Of a stretch of 64,000 nt of DNA, positions 18,017 to 44,099 are shown in pieces. The position numbers and the translations under genes were made by a program. This DNA is from Acidobacteria bacterium Ga0077534 (GTDB lineage: Bacteria; Acidobacteriota; Blastocatellia; Pyrinomonadales; Pyrinomonadaceae): assembly GCA_001464455.1 (NCBI GenBank), contig LNEI01000018.1, forward strand, positions 475,343 to 539,342, read 5' to 3'. The first letter of the stretch is position 1; each line of letters starts with the position of its first letter. The notes under the pieces were generated by a model. That model was not told the origin of the DNA. It did not search any database and worked only from the letters and a program-made list of their open reading frames with translations.

Positions 18017-19819
18017 CTAATAGCTCTTTTTCTCAAACTCCGCAAAAACATCCACCAGGCATTCCCTTACATCTGATGCGGTCATTACGCGTTTCCCGTA
18101 CTTTTTCTCGGCAATGTCTCCGGCCATTCCGGCGACATACACGGCGGCGACCACGGTCTCGAAGATATCGATCTCAAACTTCACCGCCTGAGCAACAAAC
18201 CCTGCGAGAATACCCGCCAAAGTATCACCATTCCCAGCCTTCCCAAGCCCGGAATTCCCGGTCGGATTTACAACCACCCGCCCATCCGGCGACCCGATCA
18301 AAACCCGCTCGCCTTTCAGGACGAGTATCACGTTACGTTCAACCGCAAACTCCCGAACAGTCGCAACCCGGTCCTTTATCGCATCCTTGTCGTCCGTACC
18401 AAGCAGCCGCAGAAACTCACCCTCGTGCGGTGTCAGGATGAGCGGCTGAAGCCGCTCCAAGCTCGCCTCCTTACGAAGGAGGGGTGTCGCCGCTTCGGCG
18501 ACGGGGTGGTTCTCTACTCTCGGCACCACGGACGTTGATGTATCCCGCGACGAGAGAACCACCCCGTCATCCGCAAAAGACGCGGATGCCACCCCTCCTT
18601 CGTAAGGAGGGGAGCCGTCGCGTGGCTCTTCTTGCAATAGACTAGTCGGAGCTTCACAAAACCCCAACGCCCCGGCATCGAGAATAACTGGCACAGTCCG
18701 CGTCGAAACGATCTCTCGCACCAACTTCCCGCCCTCGCCATCATTTACATCAAGCCCCGGCCCGATCAAGATCGAATCCGCTTTCCCAATCGCGCCCGCA
18801 TTCTCGCCAATTGTTCCTACAATCACCTCCGGAATCACCCGCGAAGCGACCTCAACCTTACACGAAGCCGGAACCAGCAAGGTCGTCAACCCAACCCCAG
18901 ACCGCATCGCCGAATTCCCACACATCACCGCCGCCCCGGAATATTGCTCGGAACCCGCGACGATCAAGGCGTGGCCGCGTTTGTTCTTATAATCGCTGCT
19001 TTCAAAATTTAGCCAGTAGTGCAACAAACCACGAACATCTTCCTCTTCGGAGACATAGAGTTGCGAATTGGCTTCGTTGATCAACTCCATGGGCGATCCG
19101 ATATCTGCGATAATCAACTCGCCGTTACGTGCCGCCGCAGGCGGAAGTACATTCGGGATCTTGGGAGCGGTAAATGTGACGGTTACGTCCGCGTTCGCGC
19201 TGATTTCATCAGCCCAGTCTGTCCGTACTCGCAAGCCCGTTGGCAAATCTACAGATATCAACAAAAATAGACTATCTCGTTCCGACCTTTCGTCGAACCA
19301 TTCACTCGTTACGACCTGGCAAATATTTTCTTCTAATTTTCTCGACAAACCCGTTCCAAAGATTGCGTCTACAACGACTTCGGGGCGTGCGAGCGGGCGA
19401 AACCTCTTTCTGAAATACTCGCCGTCGTGTTCTTCGCAAAAATAGATTCTACCGGCATCAGGCTTGTCATACGGATCGTACTCTTTACGAGAGTGGAAAT
19501 TTGAGATCGATCTCAAAATATCAAAGTTGATGCGAGCATCGCCTTTGGTGTCTTCGACCTTGCCGAATAGGAACACAGAAACCACAGCTCCCGCCGTCCA
19601 AAGCATCCTCGCCAGAGCCGCTCCATCCCCGCCATTATTCCCTCTCCCGCAAAGTATCAGTACCGACTTCCCTTTCACCGAACCGCCGAGTTTCTCAGTA
19701 ATGACGCGGGCGACGGCGTGGGCGGCGTTTTCCATTAGGATGATGGATGGAATGCCGTACCGCTCGGTCGTCAGACGGTCGACCTCTCGCATTTGTTCGG
19801 CTGTCAGGACTTTTAGCAT
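18017..19819 (-). CDS. nnr: Bifunctional NAD(P)H-hydrate epimerase / ADP-dependent dehydratase, with in-frame repeat insertion
   Basis: A 600-residue metabolite-repair enzyme. The N-terminal YjeF epimerase domain has LCGRGNNGGDGAALAR; the C-terminal ADP-dependent dehydratase domain has GHALIVAGSEQYSGAA, ILIGPGLDVND, TPHEGEFLRLLG and NPTGNSGLGKAGNGDTLAG. Together they repair hydrated NADH and NADPH. The protein is longer than usual (about 500) because residues about 402-459 are encoded by a palindromic DNA repeat, read as SPPYEGGVASASFADD and later HPVAEAATPLLRKEAS. The insertion falls before the TPHEGEF segment of the dehydratase domain and keeps the frame. GGAG lies 9 nt before the ATG. Confidence 0.94.
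   Translation of the reverse strand: MLKVLTAEQMREVDRLTTERYGIPSIILMENAAHAVARVITEKLGGSVKGKSVLILCGRGNNGGDGAALARMLWTAGAVVSVFLFGKVEDTKGDARINFDILRSISNFHSRKEYDPYDKPDAGRIYFCEEHDGEYFRKRFRPLARPEVVVDAIFGTGLSRKLEENICQVVTSEWFDERSERDSLFLLISVDLPTGLRVRTDWADEISANADVTVTFTAPKIPNVLPPAAARNGELIIADIGSPMELINEANSQLYVSEEEDVRGLLHYWLNFESSDYKNKRGHALIVAGSEQYSGAAVMCGNSAMRSGVGLTTLLVPASCKVEVASRVIPEVIVGTIGENAGAIGKADSILIGPGLDVNDGEGGKLVREIVSTRTVPVILDAGALGFCEAPTSLLQEEPRDGSPPYEGGVASASFADDGVVLSSRDTSTSVVPRVENHPVAEAATPLLRKEASLERLQPLILTPHEGEFLRLLGTDDKDAIKDRVATVREFAVERNVILVLKGERVLIGSPDGRVVVNPTGNSGLGKAGNGDTLAGILAGFVAQAVKFEIDIFETVVAAVYVAGMAGDIAEKKYGKRVMTASDVRECLVDVFAEFEKKSY
18441..18614. repeat. Palindromic element D inside nnr
   Basis: Two inverted arms, 18461-18515 and 18552-18614, share CTCCTTACGAAGGAGGGGTG and ACGGGGTGGTTCTCT. 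Each encloses a different small hairpin (GCCGCTTCGGCG in one, ATCCGC...GCGGAT in the other). A further hairpin, AGCGGC-tgaa-GCCGCT, adjoins at 18441-18456. The core CTCCTTACGAAGGAG is self-complementary. All of it is translated in frame on the minus strand as part of nnr. Confidence 0.9.
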
Positions 19820-20327: not shown

Positions 20328-23108
20328 ATGGACGACAAATATTTTGCGAAGAAGATAGAGCAGAAATGGCAGAAGATATGGGCCGAGACCGGGGCTTTTC
20401 ATGCCGAGGTTGACGACGAGAAGCCGAAGTTTTACGCGCTCGAGATGCTTCCGTACCCGTCGGGCAATCTGCACATGGGCCACGTGCGAAATTATTCGGC
20501 CGGCGACGCATTAGCCTGGTATAAGCGGCTTCGCGGGTTCAACGTGCTGCACCCGATCGGCTGGGATTCGTTTGGCCAGCCTGCTGAGGATGCGGCGGTA
20601 AAGCGCGGCGTCAATCCTCGCGAATGGACCGAGGCAAATATCGTCTCGATGCGCGGCCAGCTTCAGCGGTTGGGTTTAAGCTACGACTGGCGGCGGCAGA
20701 TGTACGCCCACCGGCCTGAGTACTACAAATTCGACCAGTGGTTTTTTCTCAAAATGTACGAAATGGGCCTCGCGTACAAAAAGCAGACCCAGGTCAACTG
20801 GTGCTCGCACGACCAGGCGACCCTTTCAAACGAGCAGGCTAGCGGCGGACTGTGCTGGCGCTGCGGTAATCCGGTCACGAAGAAAGACCTCGAGCAATGG
20901 TTCCTCAAAACGACCGCATATACCGACGAGCTTCTCGATGACATGACGGAGATCGAGTCGGGCTGGCCAGCGAGCGTTATCAAGCGGCAGCAGGACTGGA
21001 TGGGCCGCTCTTACGGGGCGTATGTCGATTTTGAGATATCAGCATCGGGCGAGTCGCTATTCGCTTGCCCGATAGTCGACGGCATTACGAGCACGACCGA
21101 CCTTGGTAAAAAGCGCGTCCGCGTTTTCACGACGCGGATCGACACGATATTCGGGGCGAACGCGATCGTCCTCGCAGCCGAGCATCCGGTGATACAGGCA
21201 AACATGGACAATTTTGCCGAGGATGTCGCCGCCAAGATCGCCTACATCCGTACCGAAAATGCCAAGCCCGCAGATCACGAGGTCGAGATCGAAAAAGACG
21301 GCATCGACACGGGGCTGAAAGCTCTGAATCCTTTCAGCAACGAGGAGATCCCCGTCTGGGTCGGCAACTACGTGATGATGGGCTACGGCACGGGCGCCGT
21401 GATGAGCGTTCCGGCTCATGATGAGAGGGATTTTGAGTTTGCAAGGAAATTTGGGCTGCCGGTCAAGACGGTGATCGTGTCAGAACCCCCTGCGTCAGCG
21501 GGGGGCAATCAAGAGGCTTGTAGTTTAACTTCGGATACGGCAGACAAAGTTGAGTTGGGTTCAACACTGACGCCGCCCGCTTACGCAGGCGGTTCTGACG
21601 GCGTTCTCATCAACTCCGGCGTGTGGTCGGGGATGACGAGCGAAGAGGCTAAAGCGTCAATGACGGAATATGCCGTCAAATATTTCTTCGGCGAAGCCGC
21701 GACGACGTATCGGCTTCGCGACTGGGGCATTTCGCGGCAGCGTTTCTGGGGATCGCCGATCCCGATCGTCTATTGCGACGACTGCGGGACCGTGCCCGAG
21801 AAGTTTGAGAATCTGCCGGTCGAACTGCCTGAAACCGCTCCGTTCACGGGAACCGGCGAATCCCCGCTCGCAAAGGTTCCTGAGTTTTACGAGACCACGT
21901 GTCCGAAATGCGACGGCCCTGCCCGACGCGAGACCGACACGATGGACACGTTTGTCGATTCGAGCTGGTACTTTTTCCGCTATTCGGACGCGACCAATGA
22001 GATCTTGCCTTTCGATCCCGCGATTGCGGCATATTGGATGCCGGTTGACCAGTACATTGGCGGCGACGACCACGCCGTGATGCATCTGATCTACGCGCGT
22101 TTTTGGACAAAGGTGATGCGTGACCTCGAGCTCATTCCATTTGGCGAACCTTTCAAACGCTTGCTGACGCAGGGGATGGTCGTAGGAGAGACGTTTTTTG
22201 ATGATTCGAGTGGAAAGCGTATTTATTTCCCGCCTGACAAGGTCGAGGTCGAACGAGATTCGAAGGGAAAGATAACTTCAGCGACGGCGGTCGGTCTCGG
22301 CGGGGGAACCGCAGATGCGGACAGGAGTGTCCGCACTCCATTGAAATACGCCATCGAGCGGATGTCGAAGTCCAAGGGCAACGGCGTCGATCCTGACGAA
22401 ATGGTCGAGGCATACGGAGCTGACGCGGCAAGGCTTTTCGTGATGTTCGCCGCCCCGATCGACAACGAACTTGTCTGGAACGAAGCCGGTATCGAGGGCG
22501 CCGTCCGCTTTATCCAACGCGTTTGGCGGCTCGTCCATAGGTGGAATGAGCTGCTCAGAACCACGTATGAAGGTGCACCGCCAGCGGAAACAGCCGCTTC
22601 GCGTAAGCTCCGCCAGAAAACGCACCAGACGATCGAGCGCGTGACGGACAGCCTTGAGAGCCTTCAGTTCAACACGCCGGTTGCGGCATTGATGGAGCTT
22701 TCAAATGCGATCAGCGATTTCCCCGTCGAGCCGCAGCACGCTGCCGCCGAAGAGATCTTCGCCGTCCGCGAGGCTCTGACCGCGCTCACGCTGATGCTGA
22801 CACCATTTGCCCCGCATGTCGCGGAGGAATTTTACTCGATCCTCGTCGGAAATGAGGACGGGTTGATCGCGAATAATGCCCGTTTCCCGGAATTCGACCC
22901 GGAGCTCGCCAAAGCGGACGAGATCGAGTTCCCGATCCAGGTCAACGGCAAACTCCGCTCGCGGATCACCGCTTCGCCCGAAATATCGAACGAAGACCTC
23001 GAAAGACTAACCTTCGCCGACGCTAAGGTGAAGGAAATTACAGATGGAAAGGAGATCGTCAAGGTCATCATCGTGCCGAAACGGCTTGTAAACATCGTCG
23101 TTAGATAG
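20328..23108 (+). CDS. leuS: Leucyl-tRNA synthetase carrying two repeat-derived insertions
   Basis: A 926-residue class Ia synthetase charging tRNA-Leu. The HIGH motif is HMGH in PYPSGNLHMGHVRNY and the KMSKS motif is RMSKSKGNGVDPDEM. The CP1 editing domain is present (GYGTGAVMSVPAHDERD). The anticodon-binding and C-terminal domains are complete. Residues about 385-424, at the end of CP1, come from palindromic element A and read EPPASAGGN...LTPPAYAGGSDG. Residues about 660-672, immediately before the KMSKS loop, come from element B and read GGTADADRSVRTP. Both keep the frame. The enzyme is essential, so the insertions must be tolerated. Confidence 0.97.
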   Translation: MDDKYFAKKIEQKWQKIWAETGAFHAEVDDEKPKFYALEMLPYPSGNLHMGHVRNYSAGDALAWYKRLRGFNVLHPIGWDSFGQPAEDAAVKRGVNPREWTEANIVSMRGQLQRLGLSYDWRRQMYAHRPEYYKFDQWFFLKMYEMGLAYKKQTQVNWCSHDQATLSNEQASGGLCWRCGNPVTKKDLEQWFLKTTAYTDELLDDMTEIESGWPASVIKRQQDWMGRSYGAYVDFEISASGESLFACPIVDGITSTTDLGKKRVRVFTTRIDTIFGANAIVLAAEHPVIQANMDNFAEDVAAKIAYIRTENAKPADHEVEIEKDGIDTGLKALNPFSNEEIPVWVGNYVMMGYGTGAVMSVPAHDERDFEFARKFGLPVKTVIVSEPPASAGGNQEACSLTSDTADKVELGSTLTPPAYAGGSDGVLINSGVWSGMTSEEAKASMTEYAVKYFFGEAATTYRLRDWGISRQRFWGSPIPIVYCDDCGTVPEKFENLPVELPETAPFTGTGESPLAKVPEFYETTCPKCDGPARRETDTMDTFVDSSWYFFRYSDATNEILPFDPAIAAYWMPVDQYIGGDDHAVMHLIYARFWTKVMRDLELIPFGEPFKRLLTQGMVVGETFFDDSSGKRIYFPPDKVEVERDSKGKITSATAVGLGGGTADADRSVRTPLKYAIERMSKSKGNGVDPDEMVEAYGADAARLFVMFAAPIDNELVWNEAGIEGAVRFIQRVWRLVHRWNELLRTTYEGAPPAETAASRKLRQKTHQTIERVTDSLESLQFNTPVAALMELSNAISDFPVEPQHAAAEEIFAVREALTALTLMLTPFAPHVAEEFYSILVGNEDGLIANNARFPEFDPELAKADEIEFPIQVNGKLRSRITASPEISNEDLERLTFADAKVKEITDGKEIVKVIIVPKRLVNIVVR
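21480..21598. repeat. Palindromic element A, copy inside leuS
   Basis: Bounded by TCAGAACC at 21480 and its complement GGTTCTGA ending at 21598. The ends continue as CCCTGCGTCAGCGGGGGGC and GCCGCCCGCTTACGCAGGC, which are inverted copies of one consensus, CCGCCTGCGTnAGCGGGCGGC. The same ends bound the intergenic element at 43971-44099. Confidence 0.88.
22305..22340. repeat. Palindromic element B, short copy inside leuS
   Basis: GGAACCGCAGATGCGGACA continues with GGAG and TGTCCGCA; TGCGGACA (22316-22323) and TGTCCGCA (22328-22335) form a perfect 8-bp stem. Nearly the same sequence is found at 39554-39590 inside the YdeP-type gene, on the opposite coding strand. Confidence 0.85.
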
Positions 23109-43970: not shown

Positions 43971-44099
43971 AAACCGCCTGTGTATGCGGGCGGCAAATTT
44001 GTCAGCAGTAAGAACCGCCGGCAAATCGGACGAGCTCTCGTCAGTTGGAACTTAAATCCACTGGGAGAACAGGTCGCCCGCTCACGCAGGCGGTTCTGC
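43971..44099. repeat. Palindromic element A, intergenic copy
   Basis: Begins AACCGCCTGTGTATGCGGGC and ends in GTCGCCCGCTCACGCAGG followed by CGGTTCTG, inverted copies of the element-A terminus. It fills almost the whole gap between hsp20 and clpB. The centre differs from the leuS copy. Confidence 0.85.

Follow-up and report, generated by a model that had tools for sequence, protein, structure and literature searches.

How a long palindrome came to lie in frame within nnr, the gene for the bifunctional NAD(P)H-hydrate repair enzyme, in Acidobacteria bacterium Ga0077534 (Pyrinomonadaceae), and which enzyme may have brought it there, are the questions raised by this locus. The window, by which we mean the whole stretch of 64,000 nt that was analyzed, corresponds to LNEI01000018.1:475,343-539,342 (forward strand) of assembly GCA_001464455.1.

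The palindrome within nnr

The nnr gene (18017-19819, minus strand) is an unbroken open reading frame of 600 aa that aligns to the solved Nnr 2ax3, and both Pfam domains, YjeF_N and Carb_kinase, are detected with the insert in place, which confirms an earlier sequence-only reading that had recognized an in-frame palindrome inside this gene. The span given there, 18441-18614 with about 58 residues, is revised here to 18461-18615, that is, about 52 codons (residues 402-453, GSPPYEGGVASASFADDGVVLSSRDTSTSVVPRVENHPVAEAATPLLRKEAS), as 18441-18460 is host sequence. In the host sequence directly beside the insert, a perfect 8-bp inverted repeat (GAGCGGCTGAAGCCGCTC) is found at 18440-18457.

The palindrome is a composite of 155 nt, consisting of two units of about 54 nt in inverted orientation with their tails inward, and each unit is made up of a conserved hairpin 1 (CTCCTTACGAAGGAG), a hairpin 2 with a variable stem, and a GGGGTGGTTCTC tail. 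The left unit (18462-18514, plus strand, 53 nt, with the tail GGGGTGGTTCTC) and the inverted right unit (18554-18613, minus strand, 60 nt, with a longer hairpin 2) were delimited by alignment and by covariance-model matches (G000:C18:493805-493856 and G000:C18:493896-493955, respectively). In the left unit, arm complementarity and the unit alignment place hairpin 1, GCCTCCTTACGAAGGAGGGG, at 18465-18484, and the alignment, with four pairs showing compensatory changes, and the fold place hairpin 2, GTCGCCG-CTT-CGGCGAC, at 18486-18502. The counterparts in the right unit are hairpin 2 with the stem CATCCGC/GCGGATG at 18568-18588 (alignment and fold) and hairpin 1, CCCCTCCTTCGTAAGGAGGGG, at 18592-18612 (complementarity and alignment). 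Complementarity is 96% over 26 nt between the outer arms (18461-18486 and 18590-18615) and 88% between the inner arms (18500-18523 and 18545-18568); by complementarity and fold, the inner arm of the left unit at 18503-18523 pairs with 18545-18565. Between the units lies a middle spacer of 45 nt (18512-18556), the place at which full-length elements of relatives carry a gene of the DUF559 family.

As a single strand, the composite is predicted to fold at -62.9 kcal/mol, compared with -28.9 +/- 3.2 for shuffled sequences (z = -10.5; 0/200 shuffles as stable), and the fold takes the shape of a cross, with an outer stem, two side hairpins that are unequal in length and sequence, and an inner stem. 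The description of the arms as sharing their ends and enclosing different hairpins, indicative of a modular element, stands: the second hairpins differ, and their stems vary by compensatory changes.

The Ga0077534 enzyme matches 2ax3 over residues 8-395 and again over 453-587, the second stretch starting at the 2ax3 residue where the first ends, so that the alignment is continuous across the insert and leaves out residues 396-452. In the AlphaFold model, pLDDT is below 50 for residues 396-454, and the insert is predicted to form a disordered loop of about 52 residues. Orthologues were drawn from named records, mostly of Pyrinomonadaceae and other Acidobacteriota, and from 41 genomes of the genus, and none of those aligned shares the insert peptide. 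Some of them carry unit-derived peptides (PLLRKEGS) at the insert loop or at a second loop after LLGDE (ENHPVGETPPPLLRKEGS and similar), and others have peptides of another palindrome family (PPAxAGGS) at these loops instead. The insert loop of nnr is a recurrent landing place for repeats.

A unit family in the genome and the genus

The search for further copies that the sequence-only reading had called for was positive, and neither of the observations that would have refuted that reading was made: further copies are numerous, and the aligned orthologues lack the insert peptide. In the 4.2-Mb genome, the palindrome core CTCCTTNNNAAGGAG is present at 21 places, compared with one for a reversed control pattern. 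A unit alignment and covariance model were built from 18 copies of one genome, none of them associated with DUF559, and gave a consensus of about 54 nt, TCCCCTCCTTACGAAGGAGGGGTGGCAGCCGCTTCGGCTGACGGGGTGGTTCTC. Hairpin 1 is nearly invariant across these copies; in hairpin 2, four of the six counted pairs are changed on both sides and 98% of cells remain paired, a covariation exceeding that of all 500 shuffles and all slid controls. With this model, 106 matches were obtained in the genome at E<=0.01, and an Rfam scan returned only sub-threshold (microRNA) matches for the unit. At E<=1e-10, the unit is confined, among 149 acidobacterial genomes, to the Pyrinomonadaceae genus of the window. Units are present in 34 of 41 genomes of the genus. 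That the palindrome is no mobile element at all, arising by chance or as a conserved part of Nnr, is refuted by this copy number, by the fold z of -10.5 and by its absence from orthologues, and its probability is practically nil.

The 106 matches include a divergent subfamily with the loop GGACA and the tail GGTTGAG or GGTTGAT, whose copies are arranged in tandem between genes, in one array with a period of 194 nt. These arrays (G000:C25, L129 2277-4218; also L131, L132 and L133) have periods of 194 nt and 73 nt, and one of them contains the only intact DUF559 gene of the genome. The divergent subfamily clusters between genes, whereas nnr-type units enter genes.

Units occur as singles or as doublets with tails inward. 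The same composite is found in coaBC and in an acs-like gene, and the spacers of the three doublets (45-63 nt) are homologous, the nnr doublet lying in the opposite orientation, which indicates that the doublet was moved as a whole. There are also two solo palindromes, which have two outer ends (CTCCCCTCCTT...AAGGAGGGGAG) and look like recombination remnants of doublets. Comparison of the outer flanks of composites and full elements revealed nothing consistent except an A-rich AAAAGCT end extension, and neither a target-site duplication nor an exact empty site was found in the flanks compared, in a sample that contains no close empty site.

Genes of Ga0077534 that contain units in frame include coaBC (where the unit falls between the two domains), rluD, hsdM, atuA, an Eco57I-type gene, and genes for an amidohydrolase, an AAA protein and an Fe-S/FAD dehydrogenase. 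The unit-bearing reading frames keep their expected Pfam domains, and in several the domain spans the unit. Of 89 sampled nnr-type units, 44 fall within ORFs of at least 250 aa, so that in this sample, biased to best matches and paired units, they depart from the predominantly extragenic placement of REP and REPIN sequences. The open frames of the composite (two of six) and of the unit (four of six) are no more numerous than in shuffled sequence. A specially open frame was rejected as the reason for the in-frame copies, which are therefore best explained by survival and not by design. Disruption also occurs: the acs-like gene carries the doublet at one shared site in three species, and the frame kept in two relatives (G001 and G025) is lost in the AMP-binding gene of Ga0077534 (L026 2800-2960; G000:C18:312799-312957), which is frameshifted at the truncated right end of the doublet.

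A further possibility is that the insert was kept for the usefulness of its peptide, or of its mRNA hairpin, to Nnr or to nnr expression. Some in-frame copies are indeed retained at one site by several species, both in the acs-like gene (G001 and G025) and in MutS2, whose orthologues bear PPYEGG units at two linkers (e.g., G003 and G016). However, the peptide is found in unrelated proteins too, orthologues lacking the insert are complete, the loop is predicted to be disordered, and other repeat families fill the same loops; we thus consider a useful insert highly improbable.

Repeats of other families were also observed in coding sequence. Across the genus, the MutS2 linkers (L253-L282) are also filled by the repeat-derived peptides PPASAGG, AETRPVGSV, EPGAIATG, SAIRNPQSAI and QSPKSKV. 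In the window, leuS (20328-23108) contains a second in-frame doublet at 21480-21602, which belongs to a different palindrome family (PPASAGG...PPAYAGGS; CCGCCCGCTTACGCAGGCGG). This pattern, allowing up to three mismatches, has 91 matches in the genome on both strands and two in the control; the genomic matches often form inverted pairs spaced by 60-150 nt, and a further inverted pair of the PPAYAGG-type palindrome lies at 43974-44093 (G000:C18:519316-519435).

Association of the units with DUF559 genes

Beyond what could be read from the locus itself, the unit is genus-wide, nnr and other genes have been hit repeatedly at the same loops, and units flank DUF559 genes. In five relatives, paired units 470-620 nt apart were found, and each pair encloses one gene, in all cases of the DUF559 family (PF04480). 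A genus-wide search gave 29 strong DUF559 matches, and 26 loci were examined, comprising 24 stand-alone genes and two domains inside ORFs of more than 1200 aa. All 24 stand-alone genes have a unit within 175 nt, 23 of them on both sides, with tails mostly towards the gene; the two domains inside the long ORFs have no adjacent unit. A gene-bearing element with ends like those of the composite thus exists at the DUF559 loci of the genus.

Unit number and DUF559 also co-occur. Genomes with a stand-alone DUF559 gene contain a median of about 12 units, compared with three in those without (Mann-Whitney p=1e-6), and the difference persists at p=2e-5 after subtraction of the two flanking units, both values being uncorrected for phylogeny. 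The seven unit-free genomes are all without a stand-alone DUF559 gene as well. In addition, unit subtypes tend to track the DUF559 tree, in which three genes with GGTAG tails group together (0.95 support), as do five with TTTTTA/TTCTTA tails (0.94). In Ga0077534 itself, the units beside the one intact DUF559 gene belong to the divergent GGACA-loop subfamily and are not of the nnr type, and two other copies are remnants with weaker units 350-570 nt away. The flanking units in related genomes make DUF559 a candidate for the enzyme that spreads these hairpin repeats.

The doublet architecture and the compensated hairpins resemble those of REPINs (PMC3116915), and the genome has ten Y1_Tnp matches, which might point to an ordinary REP/REPIN mobilized by a RAYT (Y1 transposase) of this genome. 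On inspection of all ten Y1_Tnp loci, however, none was flanked by the unit (0/10 within 400 nt by the covariance model), and the flanking repeats visible at RAYT genes are different palindromes. RAYT was accordingly rejected as the mobilizer, and a RAYT origin of the unit appears very unlikely. Several of the ten Y1_Tnp genes (L030-L038) lie between distinct palindromes of their own, e.g., GCGGGCATCCTGCCCGC and GCAGGCGAGGGCGCCTGC.

A profile built from 20 DUF559 proteins hits 3hrl, an endonuclease-like protein (E 4e-32), and 3r3p, annotated as “mobile intron protein” (E 3e-5); the latter is the catalytic domain of the homing endonuclease I-Bth0305I. The invariant residues of DUF559 include D60, E71, D73, G74 and H77 (D, ExDG, H). 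The EDxHD homing endonuclease family of I-Bth0305I has been described (PMC3943268), and YcjD-like proteins have been assigned to the PD-(D/E)XK superfamily as neighbors of Vsr (PMC1189080). In Caulobacter, a DUF559 protein has been reported to trigger an SOS response in cells without a cytosine methylase (PMC12907096), which suggests that the family contains active nucleases. Judged from the profile and the conserved acidic residues, DUF559 is probably a Vsr/EDxHD-like nuclease, which may act on the units. For DUF559 as a named anti-phage system, the PADLOC matches were only weak and partial.

Of 23 DUF559 loci from outside the genus, 14 lie between inverted repeats with a score of at least 32, mostly C-rich palindromes. 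Such inverted repeats occur in 3 of 379 control windows (two of them next to RAYT genes), and the other nine DUF559 genes have no detectable flanking inverted repeats. The repeat-flanked genes were found in other acidobacteria, cyanobacteria, Deinococcus, Sinorhizobium, a Nitrospira, an Acetothermia and a Chloroflexi record. In a Nitrospira record (L242), and thus in another phylum, a DUF559 fragment is flanked by CCCCTCCTTCGTAAGGAGGGG, the core that is also found in the acidobacterial genus.

The kinship of DUF559 with a homing endonuclease of group I introns also admits a different history, which is the main rival to mobilization by DUF559: the gene may be a passenger. In that case, a homing-type nuclease gene would have entered the spacer of a palindrome moved by something else and would spread by cutting unit-bearing sites. 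Many units indeed have no DUF559 gene nearby, and 11 genomes of the genus contain units and no strong DUF559 match. However, DUF559 genes of other lineages have quite different C-rich palindromes at their flanks, a pattern that points to a standing partnership and not to a single invasion, and no other enzyme was found with the unit; we therefore regard a passenger as unlikely. A broader and more tentative proposal, to which we give somewhat less than even odds, is that DUF559 proteins across bacteria are dedicated mobilizers of a large superfamily of C-rich palindromes (CCCCTCCTT...AAGGAGGGG, CCCTCTCC...GGAGAGGG, CCCCTAAATCCCC...). These would be minimal elements parallel to the RAYT/REP systems, with a homing-type nuclease replacing the transposase, and would provide housekeeping enzymes with new in-frame loops.

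A proposed route of spread and its relation to known systems

We propose, with a probability of about two in three, that the palindrome in nnr is mobile but non-autonomous, a MITE- or REPIN-like doublet derived from a DUF559-encoding element, which was moved by DUF559 cutting and host repair and is kept where the frame and the loop tolerate it. The full-length relatives would comprise two inward-facing units around one small DUF559 endonuclease gene, and the hairpin units would be recognized by DUF559, probably as folded single strands or cruciforms. DUF559 would then cut the element, the target DNA or both, and host repair (or replication) would copy the element into the break. No PD-(D/E)XK nuclease is known to transpose DNA by itself, so the proposal depends on host repair. 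Doublets and singles would be non-autonomous derivatives of the DUF559 element, and genic copies would be lost unless the frame was kept and a permissive loop or linker was hit. The 155-nt composite in nnr would have combined the two, and the resulting loop is presumably translated and may be nearly neutral.

The in-frame insertion had been likened to the RPE palindromes of Rickettsia, in an unrelated lineage, and as behavior this likeness is supported by the further copies, the orthologues, 2ax3 and the AlphaFold model. Like RPEs, the repeats are palindromes of tens to about 150 nt that lie in frame in conserved genes, with several families per genome, as in R. conorii (PMC3733652). The host, in contrast, is a member of the Acidobacteriota, the likeness claimed here is one of behavior rather than of sequence membership in an RPE family, and the unit has a linked candidate partner in DUF559, whereas the CGTC repeats of R. 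conorii were reported without a transposase (PMC3733652).

With the REPINs and BIMEs that are associated with RAYT transposases (PMC3116915, PMC2817692), the family shares a pair of inverted hairpin units separated by a short spacer, the occurrence in arrays, stems with compensatory changes and a non-autonomous nature, but the unit flanks no RAYT, is often intragenic and lacks the GTAG tag, and its partner is DUF559. Similarly, when most of the aligned units are read in reverse, hairpin 2 is preceded by CCCCGTC and followed by GCCA, which recalls the CGTC tag and CCA tail of the CGTC-tagged REPs (PMC3733652), for which intragenic copies and no RAYT association have also been reported. Those REPs have a stem of 8-9 bp and a loop of 4-5 nt, whereas the stem and loop of hairpin 2 vary in length and sequence, and the unit has the additional conserved hairpin 1 and the DUF559 linkage. 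As in MITEs, the insert is short, has terminal inverted repeats and no gene of its own, and shares its ends with a gene-bearing relative; unlike in MITEs, this relative encodes a Vsr/homing-type nuclease and not a DDE/HUH transposase, and no target duplication was seen in the flanks compared. DUF559 is related by profile search to the EDxHD homing endonucleases (I-Bth0305I, 3r3p; PMC3943268) and the Vsr/YcjD nucleases (PMC1189080), from which it differs as a single small domain flanked by hairpin repeats, with no intron or intein. In summary, the insert resembles an RPE in its action and a REPIN or MITE in its architecture, and it has neither the RAYT linkage of REPINs nor the stem length of CGTC repeats.

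In-frame palindromic insertion is itself of a known kind, and what is new is the linkage between DUF559 and the unit. In the titles and abstract openings of a limited literature set, no paper linking DUF559 to dispersed repeats was found, and others could exist. The CGTC repeats “apparently lack a dedicated transposase” (PMC3733652), and the spread of palindromic repeats without RAYT is an open question in the literature, for which the DUF559 linkage offers a concrete and testable candidate enzyme. In addition, within this genus the loops of conserved enzymes have time and again acquired coding sequence from mobile palindromes, a process that had been considered remarkable in the Rickettsiales and is seen here outside that order.
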